Shown piece by piece: positions 23,951 to 50,637 of a stretch of 64,000 nt of DNA (position 1 is its first letter; every line of letters starts with the position of its first letter). A model generated the notes under the pieces. The model had not been told where the DNA came from. It ran no database searches and saw only the letters and a program-made list of their open reading frames with translations. A program made the translations under genes and the position numbers. The stretch comes from Methylocystis parvus OBBP (GTDB taxonomy: Bacteria > Pseudomonadota > Alphaproteobacteria > Rhizobiales > Beijerinckiaceae): the NCBI RefSeq assembly GCF_027571405.1, contig NZ_CP092968.1, forward strand, positions 372,001 to 436,000, written 5' to 3'.

Positions 23951-25186
23951 ATGAAGCGCAATCTTGTCATCGTACGCCTGCCGATCTTCGCCTGCGCGGG
24001 TCTGATTCTCTCGCTCTTCGTCGTCAATCTATGGAATTTCGCGGTTGGACGCGACTGGCCGAAGCTGCGCATCCGCAGCGCCGAGCCGCTTTTCAACATG
24101 CCCGCGCCGAAGCCGGCTCCCTGGTCGCTCGACGCTTTTCTCGACGGCGAAACGCAGAAGGCATTTTCGGCCTCTCTCGGCCAGACGATGCCGGTCTTTC
24201 CGCTCGCCGTGCGCGCAAAGAACCAGTTTCTTTATTCGCTCTTCGATGCCTCAGGCGCGTCGAACCTCGTCATCGGCAAGGAAAAGCAGCTCTTCGAGCG
24301 TTTCTATGTTCGCGAATTCTGCGATCGAAGCGGCGTCTTCGATCAGAATGTAGTCGAGGCATGGGCGGATCGTATTAACGAGATCCGGAAATCGGTCGAG
24401 GCGAAAGGCAAGCGCTTCATTTATCTCATCACGCCGTCCAAGGCGGCGCGCTTCAGCCGCTATCTTCCCGCAAATCTCTATTGCGCGTCACTCGCGAACG
24501 GAACGACGGAGAAGCTTGCGCCTTTCCGCGCGGCTCTCGACCTGCGCGGCGTCGCCTATGTCGACGGCGCGTCGCTGATGACGAAGGCCGCAAGCGAATA
24601 TCCGATCGATCTATTCCCGCGCGGCGGCACGCATTGGAATTATCTTGGCGCGGCGATCGTATCCCGGGAACTGGCGCAGGCGCTCAACAAGGCGGGCGAG
24701 GCGTCGCCGTTCCCGATCTACGAATTCGAGTGGAAGCAGCGGGACGAAGCGCTGGGCACGGATCGCGATCTTCTAAATCTGCTCAATCTCATTTGGCCGG
24801 ACGTCAAATACCCCACGGCGGATGTTGCAGGACAGAGTTCCCGCAACTGCGCACGCACGCCCGAACTCTTCGCCGTAGGCGGGAGCTTCCTGGTCCAGAT
24901 CGTGACCAATCTTGCCGCGGCGCCTTGCGGGACGTCGATCGACTACTGGCACTATGTGCACTCGGTCAAGGAGCCGTTCGGCCGGTTTCGGGTCGAGAAA
25001 ATTGCTGGCGTCGCGCAATTTAGCGAAGAGCCGTCCAGAGGGACGGATGACTTTGCGAAGGATTTTGCAAAAGCGGAAATCGTGCTTCTCGAGGAGAACG
25101 AATCCGTCATCTCCGAGATGGCGCAAGTCGCCGACCTTCTCGCGGCCGCGTCGAATAATCACGCGCCGCCCGGCGGGTCCCAATAG
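23951..25186 (+). CDS. AlgJ/AlgX-like periplasmic acetyl-transfer protein
   Basis: A 411-residue protein with an N-terminal signal anchor (LPIFACAGLILSLFVVNLWN) and an SGNH-hydrolase-like domain. H228 lies in the family motif GGTHWNYLG and S312 in AVGGSFLVQ, matching the GDSF/GGSF nucleophile position. AlgJ and AlgX move acetyl groups from the membrane partner onto the polysaccharide in the periplasm. The gene follows the AlgI-like gene and should be co-transcribed. Its 3' end overlaps the convergent EcsC gene by 28 bp. The exact acceptor is not readable from sequence. Confidence 0.82.
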   Translation: MKRNLVIVRLPIFACAGLILSLFVVNLWNFAVGRDWPKLRIRSAEPLFNMPAPKPAPWSLDAFLDGETQKAFSASLGQTMPVFPLAVRAKNQFLYSLFDASGASNLVIGKEKQLFERFYVREFCDRSGVFDQNVVEAWADRINEIRKSVEAKGKRFIYLITPSKAARFSRYLPANLYCASLANGTTEKLAPFRAALDLRGVAYVDGASLMTKAASEYPIDLFPRGGTHWNYLGAAIVSRELAQALNKAGEASPFPIYEFEWKQRDEALGTDRDLLNLLNLIWPDVKYPTADVAGQSSRNCARTPELFAVGGSFLVQIVTNLAAAPCGTSIDYWHYVHSVKEPFGRFRVEKIAGVAQFSEEPSRGTDDFAKDFAKAEIVLLEENESVISEMAQVADLLAAASNNHAPPGGSQ

Positions 25187-26001
25187 CCTTCATCGCGCGC
25201 GATTCGCGCGTAATGCGCGCGGACCATTCCGGGATCGTAGACGCGCTCCAGCCGGCGTATCGTAAAATGTCCGCGCGCCAGGGTCTGGAAATGTTCCGTG
25301 AAAGCGAGATTGATCGCCGCGCCGCTGATCCCGCCAATGATCGGCACGGCCTGCGCGGCGATTTTCTGCGAGACGACGACGCCGAAACGCGTGGAGAACT
25401 GGCTGAGAAGGCGAATGATCACCGGCGCGTTTTGTTGCGTCAGACCGCGCGCGGCGACGAAGCGCGCGGCGTCGCTGACCGATTTGGCGAGGAGGCCGCG
25501 CATGGCGAGATAGCCTCCCTCCAGCACATTGTCCTCCATATGGCCGCCGAGCGCGAAGACTTCGAGACAGGCGAGCCCCGTCTCCGGCTCGCGTAGATTT
25601 TCTCCCTCATTGCGCGCGATGTCGGCGATCGAGCGCAGCATGATGGTGGTCGACAGCGGCAGTTCGAAGGGCAAGCTCGCAAGTCCGACCGCGCCGCCGA
25701 TCCCGCCGGCCAGAGCCGCAAGACGCTTGTGCTTGCGCGTGGAGTCCCCCTTGGGCGCGCCTTCCAGACTGGTCAAGGCGACGTTGAGCGCCGTTTCGAG
25801 GGCCTTTTGGGCGGCCGCCGTCGCCATGTCCTTGACTTGCGGCGGCAAAGGCTTGCTGACAAGCCCCACTTTCCGACCCGCGAGCCGGGCGATGCGCGCG
25901 GCGAAGCTCTGACGCTCCAGCGCCGCGACTGCCGCGCGCAGCGCCTCCCAATCGGAGCTGGAGAGCTGAGTCTCGTATAAGACAGGAAGATAGCTGCTCA
26001 T
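25159..26001 (-). CDS. EcsC-family protein (first of two in the window)
   Basis: A 280-residue EcsC-family protein, with the central hydrophobic Gly-rich stretch AALAGGIGGAVGLASLPFEL and the conserved LPLSTTIMLRSIADIARNEG, then ACLEVFALGG. EcsC itself is linked to the Bacillus Ecs ABC transporter, but the biochemical role is unknown. Its C-terminus, FTEHFQTLARGHFTIRRLER, matches the second EcsC protein of this window (49768-50637) closely. It stands alone, convergent with the AlgJ-like gene. Confidence 0.88.
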   Translation of the reverse strand: MSSYLPVLYETQLSSSDWEALRAAVAALERQSFAARIARLAGRKVGLVSKPLPPQVKDMATAAAQKALETALNVALTSLEGAPKGDSTRKHKRLAALAGGIGGAVGLASLPFELPLSTTIMLRSIADIARNEGENLREPETGLACLEVFALGGHMEDNVLEGGYLAMRGLLAKSVSDAARFVAARGLTQQNAPVIIRLLSQFSTRFGVVVSQKIAAQAVPIIGGISGAAINLAFTEHFQTLARGHFTIRRLERVYDPGMVRAHYARIARDEGYWDPPGGA

Positions 26002-44492: not shown

Positions 44493-44756
44493 ATGAAATA
44501 CGCTATGACGATGTTTTGCGCCATCCTGTTCAGCGGCGCGATGGCCTGCGTCCCGGCGAAGGCCCACCATACCGGAGAAACGGGCGACGTCGTCCGCGAA
44601 GGCGGTCATCACCGCAACCCGCAACATCGCCAGATGAAGAGCCATATCGTGCGCGAAGGCGGATATGGTCACCATTACCATCACCCCAAGCCGTATCACG
44701 GCCCGCATTGGGGTAAGCATCACCATCACGGCGTGCATCTCGAAGGCGGCCACTAA
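44493..44756 (+). CDS. Small His-rich exported protein
   Basis: An 87-residue protein with a signal peptide (MKYAMTMFCAILFSGAMA, then CVPAKAHH). The mature part is dominated by His, Gly and Lys, with runs HHYHHPKPYHGPHWGKHHHH. The repeated VREGG(Y/H) unit appears twice. Such His-rich secreted proteins can bind copper, zinc or nickel in the periplasm, an appealing role in a copper-dependent methanotroph, but this is inference. The GGGGGAGGGA ribosome binding site precedes the ATG at 44493; C19 could also be a lipid-attachment site. Confidence 0.68.
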   Translation: MKYAMTMFCAILFSGAMACVPAKAHHTGETGDVVREGGHHRNPQHRQMKSHIVREGGYGHHYHHPKPYHGPHWGKHHHHGVHLEGGH

Positions 44757-46314: not shown

Positions 46315-46327
46315 AATGATTTTCATT
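46315..46327. promoter_or_regulatory. Fur-box-like inverted repeat upstream of the metal ATPase operon
   Basis: AATGATTTTCATT matches the core of the Fur consensus AATGATAATCATT at 12 of 13 bases. It lies 105 bp before the DUF5132-like gene and 98 bp before rplM. A Fur/Mur/Zur-type repressor could bind here, but the outer flanks of the consensus are weak. Confidence 0.5.
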
Positions 46328-46431
46328 AAATGGTGCGATAATACCGCATGGATTCCCGTCTGGCCGACGGTCGTTACAAACGTGTCGCACGGCGAAGCTA
46401 CGGTCATCCGGTCATTTAAGGAGCTAACCAT

Positions 46432-46842
46432 ATGAGCGGCGCGGAGCATCGCAGCGATTCCCAAGGGCAGGAGCACGACCACGAGATCGAGGCTCATGCG
46501 GACCACGGCGACGAAGAGTTTACTCTGGACGACGAGGACAAGACCCTCCTCGGCACCGTCGCGACCGTTGGCGCCGTCGGCGTCGGCGTGGCTCTGTTCG
46601 AAGCGGCCTTGCTTCCTGGCGTCGTCCTCGGCGTTGCGGCCATGGCCGCGCCGAAAGTGCTCCCGCGCTTTGGCGCCGCTCTAACGCCGCTGTTCAAAAC
46701 CACGGTGCGCGGCGTCTACAAGCTTGGCCAGAAGACCAAGGAAGTCGTCGCGGAGACCCAGGAGCAGTTCCAGGACATTGTCGCCGAGGTCGATTCCGAA
46801 GGGAAGGGGAAGGCGGCGCAGCAGCCGACGCCTAAAGCCTGA
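46432..46842 (+). CDS. DUF5132-like membrane protein with metal-ligand-rich N-terminus
   Basis: A 136-residue protein. The N-terminal 38 residues are rich in His, Asp and Glu (SDSQGQEHDHEIEAHADHGD) and could bind metal. A hydrophobic segment (VATVGAVGVGVALFEAALLP, GVVLGVAAMAAP) follows, then an amphipathic helix (VYKLGQKTKEVVAETQEQFQ) with an acidic end. The plan resembles mycobacterial PacL-type chaperones of P1B ATPases (anchor, helix, metal motif), although sequence identity is not obvious; this is my inference. It is the first gene of the operon; an AAGGAG ribosome binding site precedes the ATG. Confidence 0.72.
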   Translation: MSGAEHRSDSQGQEHDHEIEAHADHGDEEFTLDDEDKTLLGTVATVGAVGVGVALFEAALLPGVVLGVAAMAAPKVLPRFGAALTPLFKTTVRGVYKLGQKTKEVVAETQEQFQDIVAEVDSEGKGKAAQQPTPKA

Positions 46843-47594
46843 TGTCGGCGCTCAATGGGTCTGAGACGGGCAAGGCGTCCCTCGCGGCTGCCCGCCCGGG
46901 AGCGGCGGAAGCGGGGGCCCCGCAAGGCGCAGAAGCGCAAACAGGCCCGCATGTGGTTGCGAATGACGCGGCGGACGCCGGAGAAGCGACTGGCCACAAG
47001 CACAAAAGCAAGAAGAAAAGACATAAGCATAAGCTCCACGTCGCCCATCACACGCCGGGACGCGTGCGCATGAAGATTCCGTCCGCCAAGGGCGATCTTG
47101 AGGCATTGCGTCAGATGGGAGAGGCCTTCGGCGTCCTGCCGGGGGTTGAGCGCGTCACCATCAACGCGGACACTGGCAGCATCGTTCTCCACTATGACCA
47201 TGAAGACGACCGATTCCACGACCATCTTCATCGCAGCGTTCACGGCGTAAACGGGTCCCGCCCGCCAGAGACCGAACTGGATCAACTCGTCCATAAAATA
47301 GAGGATGAAGCGAAGTTCCTCGCGGAGCATTCGCATACGGCGCGGTTGATCGTGGGACTGTTTTCGGATCTCGACCGCGAGATAAGGAAATCGACGAACA
47401 ACAACGCGGATTTGAAGCTCGCGCTCGCCGCCAGCGTCGTCGGCGTCACCGTTCTCGAGATTGGCATGACGGCGGCGACGCCGGTTTGGCTCACGCTGAG
47501 CGTATTCACCTTGAATCATTTCGTCGAGCTGCACCAGCCGCGCCGCCAGCCGGCTTCGGCGCGCGCGCCGATGGCGTTCAAAAAGGCCCGCTGA
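46842..47594 (+). CDS. HMA_2-like domain membrane protein
   Basis: A 250-residue protein starting with an ATG that shares its A with the upstream TGA (TGATG). A His/Lys-rich linker (HKHKSKKKRHKHKLHVAHH) at 52-70 leads into the HMA_2 fold: HHTPGRVRMKIPSAKGDLEA to NADTGSIVLHYDHEDDRFHD. Then comes a helical region and hydrophobic segments at about 193-228 (LKLALAASVVGVTVLEIGMT). The fold is that of metallochaperone domains, but the usual CxxC ligands are absent. Residues resemble the N-terminus of the following ATPase (HHMPGRVRVRIP), suggesting a shared origin. Confidence 0.8.
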   Translation: MSALNGSETGKASLAAARPGAAEAGAPQGAEAQTGPHVVANDAADAGEATGHKHKSKKKRHKHKLHVAHHTPGRVRMKIPSAKGDLEALRQMGEAFGVLPGVERVTINADTGSIVLHYDHEDDRFHDHLHRSVHGVNGSRPPETELDQLVHKIEDEAKFLAEHSHTARLIVGLFSDLDREIRKSTNNNADLKLALAASVVGVTVLEIGMTAATPVWLTLSVFTLNHFVELHQPRRQPASARAPMAFKKAR

Positions 47595-47635
47595 CTCCCC
47601 AGCGCGGGCGCGCCTCGAATCTTCAGGTGCCAGTA

Positions 47636-49771
47636 ATGCAAATCGAGATCCGCCATCACATGCCCGGCCGCGTGCGTGTGCGCATCCCCTCATTGCGTCG
47701 CGATCGCGCGCTTTCCGAGGGGGTTCTCGCTTGGGTGCGGGGCAAGAAAGGCGTTCGCAGCGCGCGGATCAATTATGACTGCGCAAGTCTTGTCGTCGAA
47801 TATGAGCGCGCGCAGGAGCCGGTCTTCCGTCTGGCGCTCGGTCAACTGCGGCTCATGACGCTCGAAGGCCTGCGCGCATTGACGGCGGGCGACGGCGCTG
47901 GCGACATCGGCCGTCATGAGGCGAAAGAGCTTCTCGCCAGGCAGCAGGTCGAGTCGAGACGCTTCCCATTGCTGGCGCCGACGATCTCGCTCGCGCTGGC
48001 TTTCGCGCCCCATCCCGCGGTCCGGCTCGTCAACGGGCCGCTGATGTTGTGGAACGCCTATCCGATTGCGCTGCGCGCCTATAAGGTCTGGCGCAACGAG
48101 GGTCGCCTCAACGTCGATTTCCTCGATGCTCTCGCGATCGGCGCTTCGCTCATTCAGGGCAATTATGTCGCGGGCGCGCTCATAACCTGGCTAATCAAGC
48201 TTGGCGACTGGATTCGCGATCTCACTGCGGCGGGCTCAAAGCGCGCGATCGGCGATCTCCTCGATTTCCGTGGGAAAACCGCATGGATCCTGCGGGACGG
48301 CTCCGTCGTTTCGGTTTCGTCCGAGGACATTTGCGTCGGAGACGAAGTGGTCGTTTACCCCGGCGAAATGATCCCGGTCGACGGAGAGATCATCGACGGC
48401 GCCGCCCTGATCGATCAGAAGACAATCACGGGCGAAGGATTGCCGGTGACGCGCGGAATCGGAGAGGCGGCCTTCGCCGCGACCGTCATCCGCGAAGGAC
48501 AGATCACTATCAGGGCCCAGAGCGTCGGCGGGGACACCACGGCGGGGCAGATTGTGCGGCTGATCGACAGCGCGCCAGTGGGCGACACCCGCATGCAAAA
48601 TCACGCCGAGCGTCTGGCCGACCGTCTTGTCGTCCCGACGCTCGGCGTCGCCATGGGGGCTTCGGCGCTCTCCGGCGACTTCTCTCGCTTCCTGTCGCTG
48701 GTCATCGTCGATTACGGCACGGGCATCCGCGTCGCCGCGCCGACCGCCGTGCTGTCGTCGATGACGCGCGCGGCGCGCGAGGGAATCATCATCAAGAGCG
48801 GGCGCCATATGGAGAAGCTCGCTGAAGTCGACACGGTCGTTTTCGACAAGACTGGAACGCTGACGCGCGGCAATCCCGAAGTGATCGACATTATCGGATA
48901 CCAGCGGCACATTCCCGGCGATCGCCTCCTGGGTCTCGCCGCGGCGGCGGAAAGCCGGTTGCAACATCCGGTGGCGGAAGCGCTGCGCCGAAAGGCCGCC
49001 GCCCTCGACGTGACGATCCCGCCATGCGACGAAATGAAATTCTCGGTTGGCCTCGGCGTCGAGGGGCAGATTGAAGGGCATTATCTGCATGTCGGCAATG
49101 AACGATTCATGCGCGAGAGCGGAATACGCACTGACGCGGCGGCGGGCGACCGCGCCGGCATCGATGAGCAGGGATATTCCTGCCTGTATGTCGCAATGGA
49201 CGGTCAGCTCGCCGGCCTCGCGCCTTACGCTGATGAGATTCGCAAGGAAAGCAGCGAAGTTATTTCGCGCTTGCATTCCATGGGCGTCAAAAACACGGTG
49301 TTGCTCACCGGGGACAACGCCGTTGTCGCCAAGGCCGTGGGACGCCGCCTGGGGCTGACGCGCCAATACGCCAATATGCTGCCGACCGACAAGGCGGACG
49401 TGATTCAGGAGCTGCAACGCGACGGCCGCATCGTGGCGATGGTCGGCGACGGCATCAACGATTCGCCTGCTCTGAGCTTCGCCGACGTCGGCGTCGCGAT
49501 GAAGCACGGCGCCGAAGTGACCCATGAGTCCGCCGACGTCGTCCTCATGGAGGATTCGCTCTACAAGCTCGTCGAAGCTTTTGAGATATCGCGGGGCGCC
49601 GTAAGCCTTATCAAGCAGAATTACGGAATCGTCGTCGTCATGAACACTTTGGCTCTCGGCCTCGCCTTGCCGGGCGGGCTGATCAGCCCTTCCGTGACCG
49701 CGGTGCTCAGCAACGGCTCGGCGATCCTTGCGAGCCTCAACGCGGTGCGCCCGATCCTGCGCTATCGATGA
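47636..49771 (+). CDS. P1B-type metal ATPase with atypical transmembrane metal site
   Basis: A 711-residue heavy-metal-transporting P-type ATPase. The N-terminal HMA_2-like domain (RHHMPGRVRVRIPSL) precedes the actuator TGE at T265 (TGEGLPVT), the phosphorylated D404 in DKTGTLTRG, the P1B HP dipeptide H444-P445 and GDGINDSPA at 604-612. In the sixth membrane helix, where P1B pumps have CPC/CPx, residues 359-369 read DYGTGIRVAAP, with no cysteine. Transported ion unknown. The start at 47636 begins the HMA domain; upstream frame overlaps the previous gene and was not used. Its stop overlaps the EcsC start (ATGA). Confidence 0.9.
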   Translation: MQIEIRHHMPGRVRVRIPSLRRDRALSEGVLAWVRGKKGVRSARINYDCASLVVEYERAQEPVFRLALGQLRLMTLEGLRALTAGDGAGDIGRHEAKELLARQQVESRRFPLLAPTISLALAFAPHPAVRLVNGPLMLWNAYPIALRAYKVWRNEGRLNVDFLDALAIGASLIQGNYVAGALITWLIKLGDWIRDLTAAGSKRAIGDLLDFRGKTAWILRDGSVVSVSSEDICVGDEVVVYPGEMIPVDGEIIDGAALIDQKTITGEGLPVTRGIGEAAFAATVIREGQITIRAQSVGGDTTAGQIVRLIDSAPVGDTRMQNHAERLADRLVVPTLGVAMGASALSGDFSRFLSLVIVDYGTGIRVAAPTAVLSSMTRAAREGIIIKSGRHMEKLAEVDTVVFDKTGTLTRGNPEVIDIIGYQRHIPGDRLLGLAAAAESRLQHPVAEALRRKAAALDVTIPPCDEMKFSVGLGVEGQIEGHYLHVGNERFMRESGIRTDAAAGDRAGIDEQGYSCLYVAMDGQLAGLAPYADEIRKESSEVISRLHSMGVKNTVLLTGDNAVVAKAVGRRLGLTRQYANMLPTDKADVIQELQRDGRIVAMVGDGINDSPALSFADVGVAMKHGAEVTHESADVVLMEDSLYKLVEAFEISRGAVSLIKQNYGIVVVMNTLALGLALPGGLISPSVTAVLSNGSAILASLNAVRPILRYR

Positions 49772-50637
49772 GCCTGATCGACCCGCGCTCGACGCCGCTC
49801 ACGGCGGAGCATCGTAAGATGCTGGCGCGCGCGGTCGCGATGCTGGAACGCGAGTCGCTGGCGCAACAGCTTTCCGATTATGCGAGCCAGCCGATCACCC
49901 AGGCGTTGCAGAAGATGCCCAAGCCGTTCAGCGCCAGCGTCAATCGCGCAGCGCAAAAGGCTGTTTTGCGCTGCTTGACCATCGCCCTGAACTCGCTCGA
50001 GCCGAAAGCCATCGGCCCGCCCCGCGCCAGGAGCGCCGTCATGCTGGCGGCCGCCAGCGGCGGCGTCGGCGGTTTGTTCGGCGCTGCGAGCCTCGCAATA
50101 GAGCTTCCGGTCACGACGATCCTGATGCTGCGCTCGATCGCCGAGATCGCGCGCCATTCGGGAGAGGATCTGACGACGCTCGAGGCGCGCCTCGCCTGCG
50201 TCGAGGTCTTCGCGCTCAGCGCGCAGCCGGGCAAAAACCGGACCGACTTGAGCTATTACGCGTCGCGCGCAGTGCTGAACCGCCTCTCGCGCGACATGGC
50301 GGGTTTCGTCGTGGAGAGCGGCGTCGCGGGGGCCGCGACATCCGCCGGCGGCCGCTTTGTAACGGAAATCGCCGCGCGGCTCGGCGTGGCGATTTCGGAG
50401 CGCGCGGCGGCGAGCGCCGTGCCGATCCTCGGCGCGCTGGGCGGCGCGACGGTGAATGTGATTTTCATGAATCATTATCAAAAAATAGCGCGCAGTCATT
50501 TTCTGGTGCGACGCCTGGAGCGACTTTACGGCGCTGACGTCGTGCGCCGCGAATATATGATTCTGTCAAAAGCGCTCGAGGCGTCTCGAACGGCGGAGCA
50601 AGGCGCGCGCATTCGTCCTTCGCGCGCGGAGAACTAA
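49768..50637 (+). CDS. EcsC-family protein in the metal ATPase operon
   Basis: A 289-residue EcsC-family protein. The family core is AAASGGVGGLFGAASLAIEL, then LPVTTILMLRSIAEIARHSG and LACVEVFALS; the end FMNHYQKIARSHFLVRRLER matches the other EcsC at 25159-26001. Its ATG overlaps the stop of the P-type ATPase (49768-49771), so it is translated with it. Its role in metal transport is unknown; it may regulate or partner the pump. Confidence 0.9.
   Translation: MSLIDPRSTPLTAEHRKMLARAVAMLERESLAQQLSDYASQPITQALQKMPKPFSASVNRAAQKAVLRCLTIALNSLEPKAIGPPRARSAVMLAAASGGVGGLFGAASLAIELPVTTILMLRSIAEIARHSGEDLTTLEARLACVEVFALSAQPGKNRTDLSYYASRAVLNRLSRDMAGFVVESGVAGAATSAGGRFVTEIAARLGVAISERAAASAVPILGALGGATVNVIFMNHYQKIARSHFLVRRLERLYGADVVRREYMILSKALEASRTAEQGARIRPSRAEN

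Follow-up and report, generated by a model that had tools for sequence, protein, structure and literature searches.

We analyzed a 64,000-nucleotide stretch of the Methylocystis parvus OBBP genome (contig NZ_CP092968.1, positions 372,001 to 436,000 of the forward strand), referred to below as the window. It contains an operon of four + strand genes (46432-50637), which encode a DUF5132-type small membrane protein (D), an HMA_2 protein (H), a P1B-like P-type ATPase (A) and an EcsC-family protein (E). The four-gene set is a real, conserved unit, beyond chance. Sequence comparison indicated that its best-supported kinship is with fez operons, rather than with CtpC/PacL systems. The clade of the ATPase is pinned down, and the metal ligands that predict substrate elsewhere are absent in all 120 of its members examined, the window protein and its 119 nearest relatives. 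We tentatively propose, with somewhat less than even confidence, that the operon encodes a scaffolded membrane P-type ATPase module of fez ancestry that has been re-tooled for another, hard-cation substrate.

The four-gene operon

All four open reading frames were confirmed at their coordinates on the + strand. A Shine-Dalgarno-like AAGGAG site, seen by direct reading of the sequence, lies 5' of the first gene (46418-46423, +). D (46432-46842, 136 aa) was assigned by Pfam (PF17195, 27.4 bits, cut-off 25), hydropathy and hhalign to a fez small protein. H (46842-47594, 250 aa) matches PF19991 at 47.9 bits (cut-off 30); alignment, hhalign and an AlphaFold2 model were also used in its assignment. 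The ATPase (711 aa, ATG at 47636 to stop at 49771) matches the Pfam E1-E2_ATPase and Hydrolase domains at 120 and 105 bits and NCBIfam TIGR01525 at 510 bits. Its N-terminal HMA_2-type domain scores 29.8 bits, just below the cut-off of 30. The ATPase frame opens at TTG 47486, and the start was set at 47636 as Met is found there in 12 of the 13 aligned homologues. E (49768-50637, 289 aa) matches PF12787 at 98.4 bits (cut-off 30.4), and its ATG overlaps the ATPase stop.

Direct reading confirmed four genes on one strand with TGATG at the first junction (D/H) and ATGA at the last (ATPase/EcsC), as recorded in the initial annotation. Its description of the genes as translationally linked holds for these two of the three junctions. 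It fails at the middle one, since the H stop and the ATPase ATG do not overlap and are 41 nt apart (47595-47635). The ATPase/EcsC stop overlap in relatives was considered as evidence and not used, since NTGA (N = A, G or T) ends 39 of 43 ATPase frames, EcsC-less loci counted too, which is close to chance expectation.

Conservation of the gene set

A profile of 13 ATPases retrieved 45 loci in named genomes, and D-H-A-E is found in the same order on one strand in 37 of them. EcsC was counted with a clean eight-sequence EcsC model. Five of the 45 loci are truncated by contig ends (L065, L073, L079, L084 and L088). EcsC is placed upstream of D in L080. D-H-A is present in L075 and L087 with no EcsC match anywhere in the locus, about 7 kb downstream being covered. 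The initial annotation had named co-occurrence of the four families in this order as a check on its reading; the 37 loci pass this check and show that EcsC belongs to the unit. Operon loci occur in Methylocapsa, Bradyrhizobium, Enhydrobacter, Burkholderia/Paraburkholderia, Acidisphaera, Rhodopila, Sphingomonas, an Acidobacteriaceae metagenome-assembled genome and others. In one genome of the host's order (G085, locus L036), the same four genes accompany an ATPase with 65% identity to the host's.

Many of these loci are close kin. By single linkage, 43 ATPases fall into 32 clusters at 95% identity and 18 at 80%. The full D-H-A-E locus is present in 26 of the 32 and 13 of the 18 clusters. As a control, we searched 27 other P-type-ATPase loci with hidden Markov models (HMMs) of the operon proteins (E 0.001). 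The EcsC and DUF445 HMMs match none of the 27, seven of which have only 1.5 kb flanks on each side (two of these inside L035); L035 carries a distant EcsC that is detected by Pfam and missed by the operon's EcsC HMM. In the same control, the D HMM matches two loci and the HMA_2 HMM 20.

The ATPase and its transmembrane sites

The catalytic motifs of the ATPase are intact. The DKTGT phosphorylation motif (48845-48859, +) is found in 120/120 proteins, TGE is followed by Gly, and the window protein contains GDGINDSPAL. To compare transmembrane helices (TM), we used an operon-type set that includes the window's own protein (P0001-P0120) and a FezB-type set (P0121-P0240). These are the best 120 of 6911 and the best 120 of 5636 hits, and they describe close clades, not all P1B ATPases.

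The two sets differ in TM4 and TM6. In the window protein and its 119 nearest relatives, TM4 contains an identical DYGTGIRVAAP motif (48710-48742, +) and TM6 contains (I/L/V)SNGSAI, which is LSNGSAI in the window (49706-49726, +). All 120 FezB-type proteins have DY(S/A/T)C in TM4, with a Lys further on, and HN at the SN position in TM6. The 120 operon-type proteins all lack Cys within residues 345-380 and His within residues 345-376, and only one has a His within 655-709. The initial annotation had taken the ATPase for a transition-metal pump, which becomes doubtful because its TM4 segment is without these residues. Asp359, Thr362, Arg365, Ser692 and Asn693 are invariant in 120/120. Thr362 and Ser692 occupy the positions held elsewhere by the Cys of CPC or YSC and by Met or His in TM6.

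The HN in TM6 is a hallmark of P1B-6 ATPases, with which DUF6110 small proteins are encoded (PMC9374683). The substrate of P1B-6 ATPases is tabulated as Fe(II) (PMC7558416). Judged by its motifs, the window ATPase is not P1B-6, since both the HN in TM6 and the Cys in TM4 are absent; the Cys is taken as a mark of the FezB type from the comparison made here. It shares with the FezB type an Asp and a basic residue in TM4 (D359...R365 versus D...K), the overall fold and an R-rich N-domain without CxxC. We take this N-domain, partly from the comparison made here, to be a mark of the FezB-type family. In the window protein and its 119 nearest relatives, which form a separate clade, Thr and Ser stand where the FezB type has Cys and His.

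This separation is also seen in a 31-row IQ-TREE phylogeny, the root of which is arbitrary and some branches of which are long. The operon ATPases group at 100/100. Plasmid ATPases from Deinococcus and Gloeothece join them (87/73), followed by a paralogue in the host, its degenerate neighbor and a Methylobacterium plasmid ATPase (99/98). That whole group is separate from the FezB-type, CtpC-like, Cu-type and other host rows (99/98). The DYGTGIR/SNGSAI clade could not be placed in any P1B class described in the literature consulted.

Kinship with fez operons

Fez operons are reported to be responsible for ferrosome formation (PMC12016538; PMC10979944). FezB-type ATPases were gathered within the order and by profile search. 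The Rhodopseudomonas palustris protein (P0223) has DYSCAVKF and LHNGTT in the two helices. An ATPase 73% identical to it is encoded at L129 within six adjacent genes, the boundaries of which are a reading made in this analysis. The order is an HMA_2-like protein of 128 aa (Pfam 15 bits), proteins of 81, 129 and 210 aa, the ATPase of 693 aa and an HMA_2 protein of 123 aa. Both HMA_2-like proteins were recognised by HMM. We call such clusters fez because of their similarity and number of genes, and the DUF5132-like protein is taken as a fez feature from the FezB-type loci compared here.

D is linked to s3, the small protein encoded directly before the FezB-type ATPase. A first hhalign comparison aligned s3 with window-type D at 74% and with four other DUF5132 proteins at 94%. 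With two more s3 sequences, the values were 80.8% for window-type D, 88.7% for the merged D sets and 93.5% for the other DUF5132 proteins, with scores of 33.2, 36.6 and 40.5. Reversed controls score 11-14, and 40 local column shuffles reach maxima of 17.5-20.2. With D as the query, unrelated controls and the EcsC and HMA_2 families stay at or below 0.5%; with s3 as the query, the maximum is 1.7%. The HMA_2 partner in the window is related to the fez HMA_2 protein with an hhalign probability of 98.8%.

The window operon and the fez clusters have in common a P1B-like ATPase with an R-rich HMA_2-type N-domain, a separate HMA_2 protein and a small DUF5132-like membrane protein encoded immediately upstream of the ATPase. 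They differ in the HN of TM6 and the Cys of TM4, both absent from the window ATPase. The four window genes do not match the six-gene L129 set, which includes two further small membrane proteins, and no counterpart of the other Gly-rich small proteins was recognised in the window operon. The operon type adds EcsC and usually DUF445, and no iron context was recognised among its recurrent neighbors. A FezC-like (DUF4405) cytochrome, as in D. magneticus, has no match in the four operon proteins at E 1 or better. DUF4405 is likewise undetected in the six L129 proteins at E 0.1, so it is not a constant fez feature.

The initial annotation had compared the operon with the CtpC/PacL system and had not considered fez operons, which are the nearer relative. 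PacL1 scaffolds CtpC, and the platform consists of DUF1490 and a P1B6-like ATPase (PMC9374683). Both systems encode a small membrane protein with a metal-binding-like tail beside a P1B ATPase. However, the small protein is DUF1490 there and DUF5132 here; D aligns with a Rhodococcus DUF1490 protein at only 4.2% (hhalign), and DUF1490 has no Pfam match here. The CPC motif, present in the DUF1490-linked Rhodococcus ATPase, is absent here. The operon type adds HMA_2, EcsC and DUF445, the last not in the window. Membership in the CtpC/PacL group was ruled out by the lack of a DUF1490 relation and of CPC.

The partner proteins

D begins with a His/Asp/Glu-rich tail, followed by a hydrophobic stretch rich in Gly; its C-terminal part is a homologue of the small protein preceding FezB-type ATPases. 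The tails of D proteins average 7.9% His and 19% Asp plus Glu, tail limits and some starts being rough. The His/Asp/Glu-rich tail noted in the initial annotation is present in the window. It is not constant, as at least three His are found in only 11 of 23 tails.

H contains a ferredoxin-like domain in which an R-rich HHTPGRVRMKIP motif takes the place of CxxC, followed by a C-terminal hydrophobic stretch. This stretch is conserved in a 17-row alignment, as is an invariant H..GR.R core. The AlphaFold2 model shows a beta-beta-alpha-beta-beta-alpha domain (residues 66-135) and four helices. A sequence search with H gave weak HMA domain matches (best E 0.0013). CxxC is absent from all 23 HMA_2 partner proteins, of which 11 contain some Cys. 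The initial annotation was right that this partner lacks CxxC, and the ATPase is constantly accompanied by both H and D.

E is predicted to be all-helical by AlphaFold2, with a predicted local distance difference test score (pLDDT) of 77. A sequence search of the PDB found no relative (best E 0.21). To our knowledge, EcsC and DUF445 are widespread families with no established function. DUF5132 is not mentioned in the literature searched, which did not include the primary ferrosome papers; those may touch parts of the system. Within that literature, no report joins two of HMA2 domain-containing protein, DUF5132, EcsC, cation-translocating P-type ATPase and DUF6110. This agrees with the statement in the initial annotation that it knew of no characterised system with this set.

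Genomic site and neighboring genes

The operon is flanked on its 5' side by divergent neighbor genes, which we take from their sequences to be rplM and rpsI, and on its 3' side by an ammonium transporter gene (amtB) and a PII gene, both on the - strand. The PII gene is labelled glnK here, a name chosen for this analysis. In a congener (G238, L120), the flanks are conserved (rpsI-rplM about 92%, amtB-glnK-TPR 82-88%) and the operon is absent. The gap between rplM and amtB is filled there by a single 158-aa gene, which has no match to the compared window proteins and no Pfam match at E 0.1. With the same flanks and no operon in the congener, the operon is a present/absent cassette at this site.

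A perfect-arm palindrome, AATGATTTTCATT, lies 5' of the operon at 46315-46327. It is Fur-like and not common to relatives. As a Fur core it was rejected: in a crude consensus scan, the best match in the window is 12/19 to the consensus, which about 0.17 of Markov-resampled sequences equal. An 87-aa, very His-rich protein with a signal-peptide-like start is encoded 1.7 kb before the operon (44493-44756, +), beyond rplM-rpsI. A second EcsC-family gene (102 bits) is located about 20 kb away (25159-26001, -), and its product is 37% identical to the operon EcsC. No P-type ATPase was located near this gene in the ATPase search of the host genome.

A fifth gene, which the initial annotation could not see as it is missing from the window, is common in relatives. 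It encodes DUF445, identified by Pfam at 319 bits in L036. Of the 42 relatives with EcsC, 32 have it downstream of EcsC in the same orientation. The EcsC and DUF445 frames mostly abut or overlap, and one DUF445 match begins 396 nt further. At least three of the 10 relatives without DUF445 end within 0.6 kb. Outside Bradyrhizobium, DUF445 (13 loci) is the sole flanking cluster to recur in more than four loci. In this clustering, genes were called by a simple codon score, clusters in fewer than four loci were left out, most clusters were judged from 60 residues, and several are shadow frames. Smaller clusters near the operon include a carbonic anhydrase gene (L057, L058, L073 and L087, the example scanned being from L057) and an ABC ATPase gene, each in four loci and none in Bradyrhizobium. 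Polyphosphate kinase 2 is found in six loci (three outside Bradyrhizobium), a SnoaL-like gene in 11 (one outside) and a cupredoxin-type gene in five, all Bradyrhizobium. The example from a further 16-locus cluster (three outside Bradyrhizobium) has no Pfam match.

Related modules in the host and on plasmids

The plasmid ATPases of Deinococcus peraridilitoris (L032) and Gloeothece verrucosa (L033) form the nearest clade outside the operon's own. They share D(F)(A/G)(S/T)GIRV in TM4, and DUF5132 and HMA2 genes are found near the Gloeothece ATPase. They differ in identity (about 39%), in gene order and in having no match to the operon EcsC HMM; the Deinococcus protein also has a His in TM6 (SHGTTI). 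A 522-aa HMA2 protein is encoded at L033 (8807-10375), with a C-terminus like the last membrane helix of the adjacent ATPase and no ATPase domain match (Pfam, E 0.1). It may be what remains of a pump, recruited as a partner.

The host genome contains three more HMA_2/P-type loci (L020, L021 and L035). L020 (9815-13948; C1:1835.8-1839.9k) and L021 (4193-9245; C1:1987.2-1992.2k) encode P2-type ATPases with PEGLP in TM4, Cation_ATPase_N/C domains and an N-terminal HMA_2-like match just below the model cut-off. DUF5132 and HMA_2-like genes are found beside or near them, and in L021 both small genes run in the opposite direction, past an S-adenosylmethionine synthetase gene. Their presence near P2-type ATPases suggests that DUF5132 together with HMA_2 may serve P-type pumps in general as an accessory.

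L035 (8994-14691; C1:2399-2404.7k) encodes a divergent pair of P1B-like ATPases. The second, which has DDSAG in place of DKTGT, looks from its sequence like a pseudo-ATPase partner. Near the pair are genes for an EcsC-family protein, for ExoD and for a small membrane protein. At L101, the Methylobacterium plasmid relative, an exopolysaccharide biosynthesis gene adjoins the ATPase (compare ExoD in L035).

Proposed mechanism and alternatives

In the mechanism that we propose, D would be inserted into the membrane through its Gly-rich stretch and cluster the pump, and its acidic and often His-rich tail would concentrate cations. The R-rich hairpin in place of CxxC suggests that H and the pump's HMA_2-like N-domain do not carry a thiophilic metal but bind to lipid or to protein, or serve to gate the pump. 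The ATPase would hydrolyze ATP through the intact DKTGT/TGE/GDGxND cycle. A pump without the Cys and His that are thought to hold iron probably handles something else. Because these residues of its relatives are gone, we propose a TM4-TM6 site formed by Asp359, Thr362, Ser692, Asn693 and probably Asn670, which would move a hard cation such as Mn2+, Mg2+ or a similar ion. The membrane domain may be shaped or held by EcsC, and by DUF445 in the loci that have it, acting as membrane-associated partners. The sequences themselves show the operon and its conservation, the kinship with fez, the missing Cys/His ligands and the intact catalytic motifs; the clustering, the class of substrate and what EcsC and DUF445 do are inferred.

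Several observations weigh against this proposal. The orthologue is rare in the host's order: matches above 900 bits are found in only two of 249 genomes (the host and G085), nine further genomes have just 34-37% ATPase matches (343-389 bits), and in the phylum search an E of 1e-110 was passed by the host alone among 398. The kinship of D with the fez protein is remote, with about 21% identity over about 61 columns. At E 0.1, s3 of L129 goes undetected by the Pfam DUF5132 model, whose match to the Cereibacter s3 is no better than E 0.03. The hard-cation substrate is argued from the absence of ligands. Just beyond the TM4 motif, a His at 377-380 is found in 80 of 120 proteins, the window protein having none, and Asn670 varies within this set. 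The model of H has moderate confidence (pLDDT 69), and the fold search with EcsC gave no clear structural relative. DUF445 is missing from the window and has no match in the host genome search, so it is not essential. Among the recurrent flanking clusters identified around the operon, no iron gene was recognised. The crude scan found no Fur-like box shared across 44 upstream regions (the window included, and one only 42 nt long), the lowest resampled fraction being 0.13. The surroundings therefore leave the substrate unconstrained.

A further-reaching form of the proposal makes the system a ferrosome cousin. In it, DUF5132, HMA_2, EcsC and DUF445 would build a platform or compartment around the ligand-switched P1B clade, concentrating a hard cation instead of iron, and the cassette would have spread among Alphaproteobacteria, Burkholderiales and Acidobacteria. 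We consider this form doubtful.

An ordinary transition-metal (Mn/Zn/Cu) efflux pump with a PacL-like scaffold would agree with the database names, as NCBIfam assigns the ATPase to heavy-metal P-type families and the source labels of homologues read 'manganese/zinc-transporting P-type ATPase C' or 'Cu2+-exporting ATPase'. The scaffolding of CtpC by PacL1 (PMC9374683), the His-containing D tails and the cupredoxin-type gene in Bradyrhizobium also fit such a pump. It is nevertheless unlikely, given YGT in TM4 where relatives have CPC or YSC, SN for HN in TM6, the lack of DUF1490 similarity and the HMA_2 proteins without CxxC. A recurrent metal-sensor gene was not recognised by eye among the flanking clusters. 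The interpretation in the initial annotation is partly supported overall, with its metal-efflux reading weakened.

We regard it as quite unlikely that the operon is a true ferrosome (fez) operon, in which iron is stored in membrane-bound granules and the altered TM sites still carry Fe2+. The DUF5132-like and HMA_2 partners and the R-rich N-terminal motif are common to both, and some relatives have an iron context: the fez-like clusters L041 and L042 adjoin FeoA/FeoB, and L102 adjoins FeoA and TonB receptors. However, the P1B-6 ligands are gone in 120/120, no iron gene was recognised among the operon's recurrent neighbors, and the crude scan found no conserved Fur-like box. Of the other small fez proteins, s1 and s2 have no direct match to D (hhalign 7.6% and 0.2%), though s1 resembles s3 (94% over 36 columns).

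An ATPase that transports no metal, but energises the membrane, moves lipid or acts purely mechanically to remodel the membrane with EcsC and DUF445, is very unlikely, as Asp359, Thr362, Ser692 and Asn693 are invariant in all 120 proteins, as for a hard-cation site, the resemblance to dynamin is not clear-cut and the closest clades are cation ATPases.

With this operon, the ferrosome-type gene module reaches further than the iron-type pump. DUF5132 recurs as a small membrane partner of HMA_2-type P-type ATPases, a role that can now be tested. EcsC and DUF445 gain a concrete partner and an operon in which their functions can be tested.

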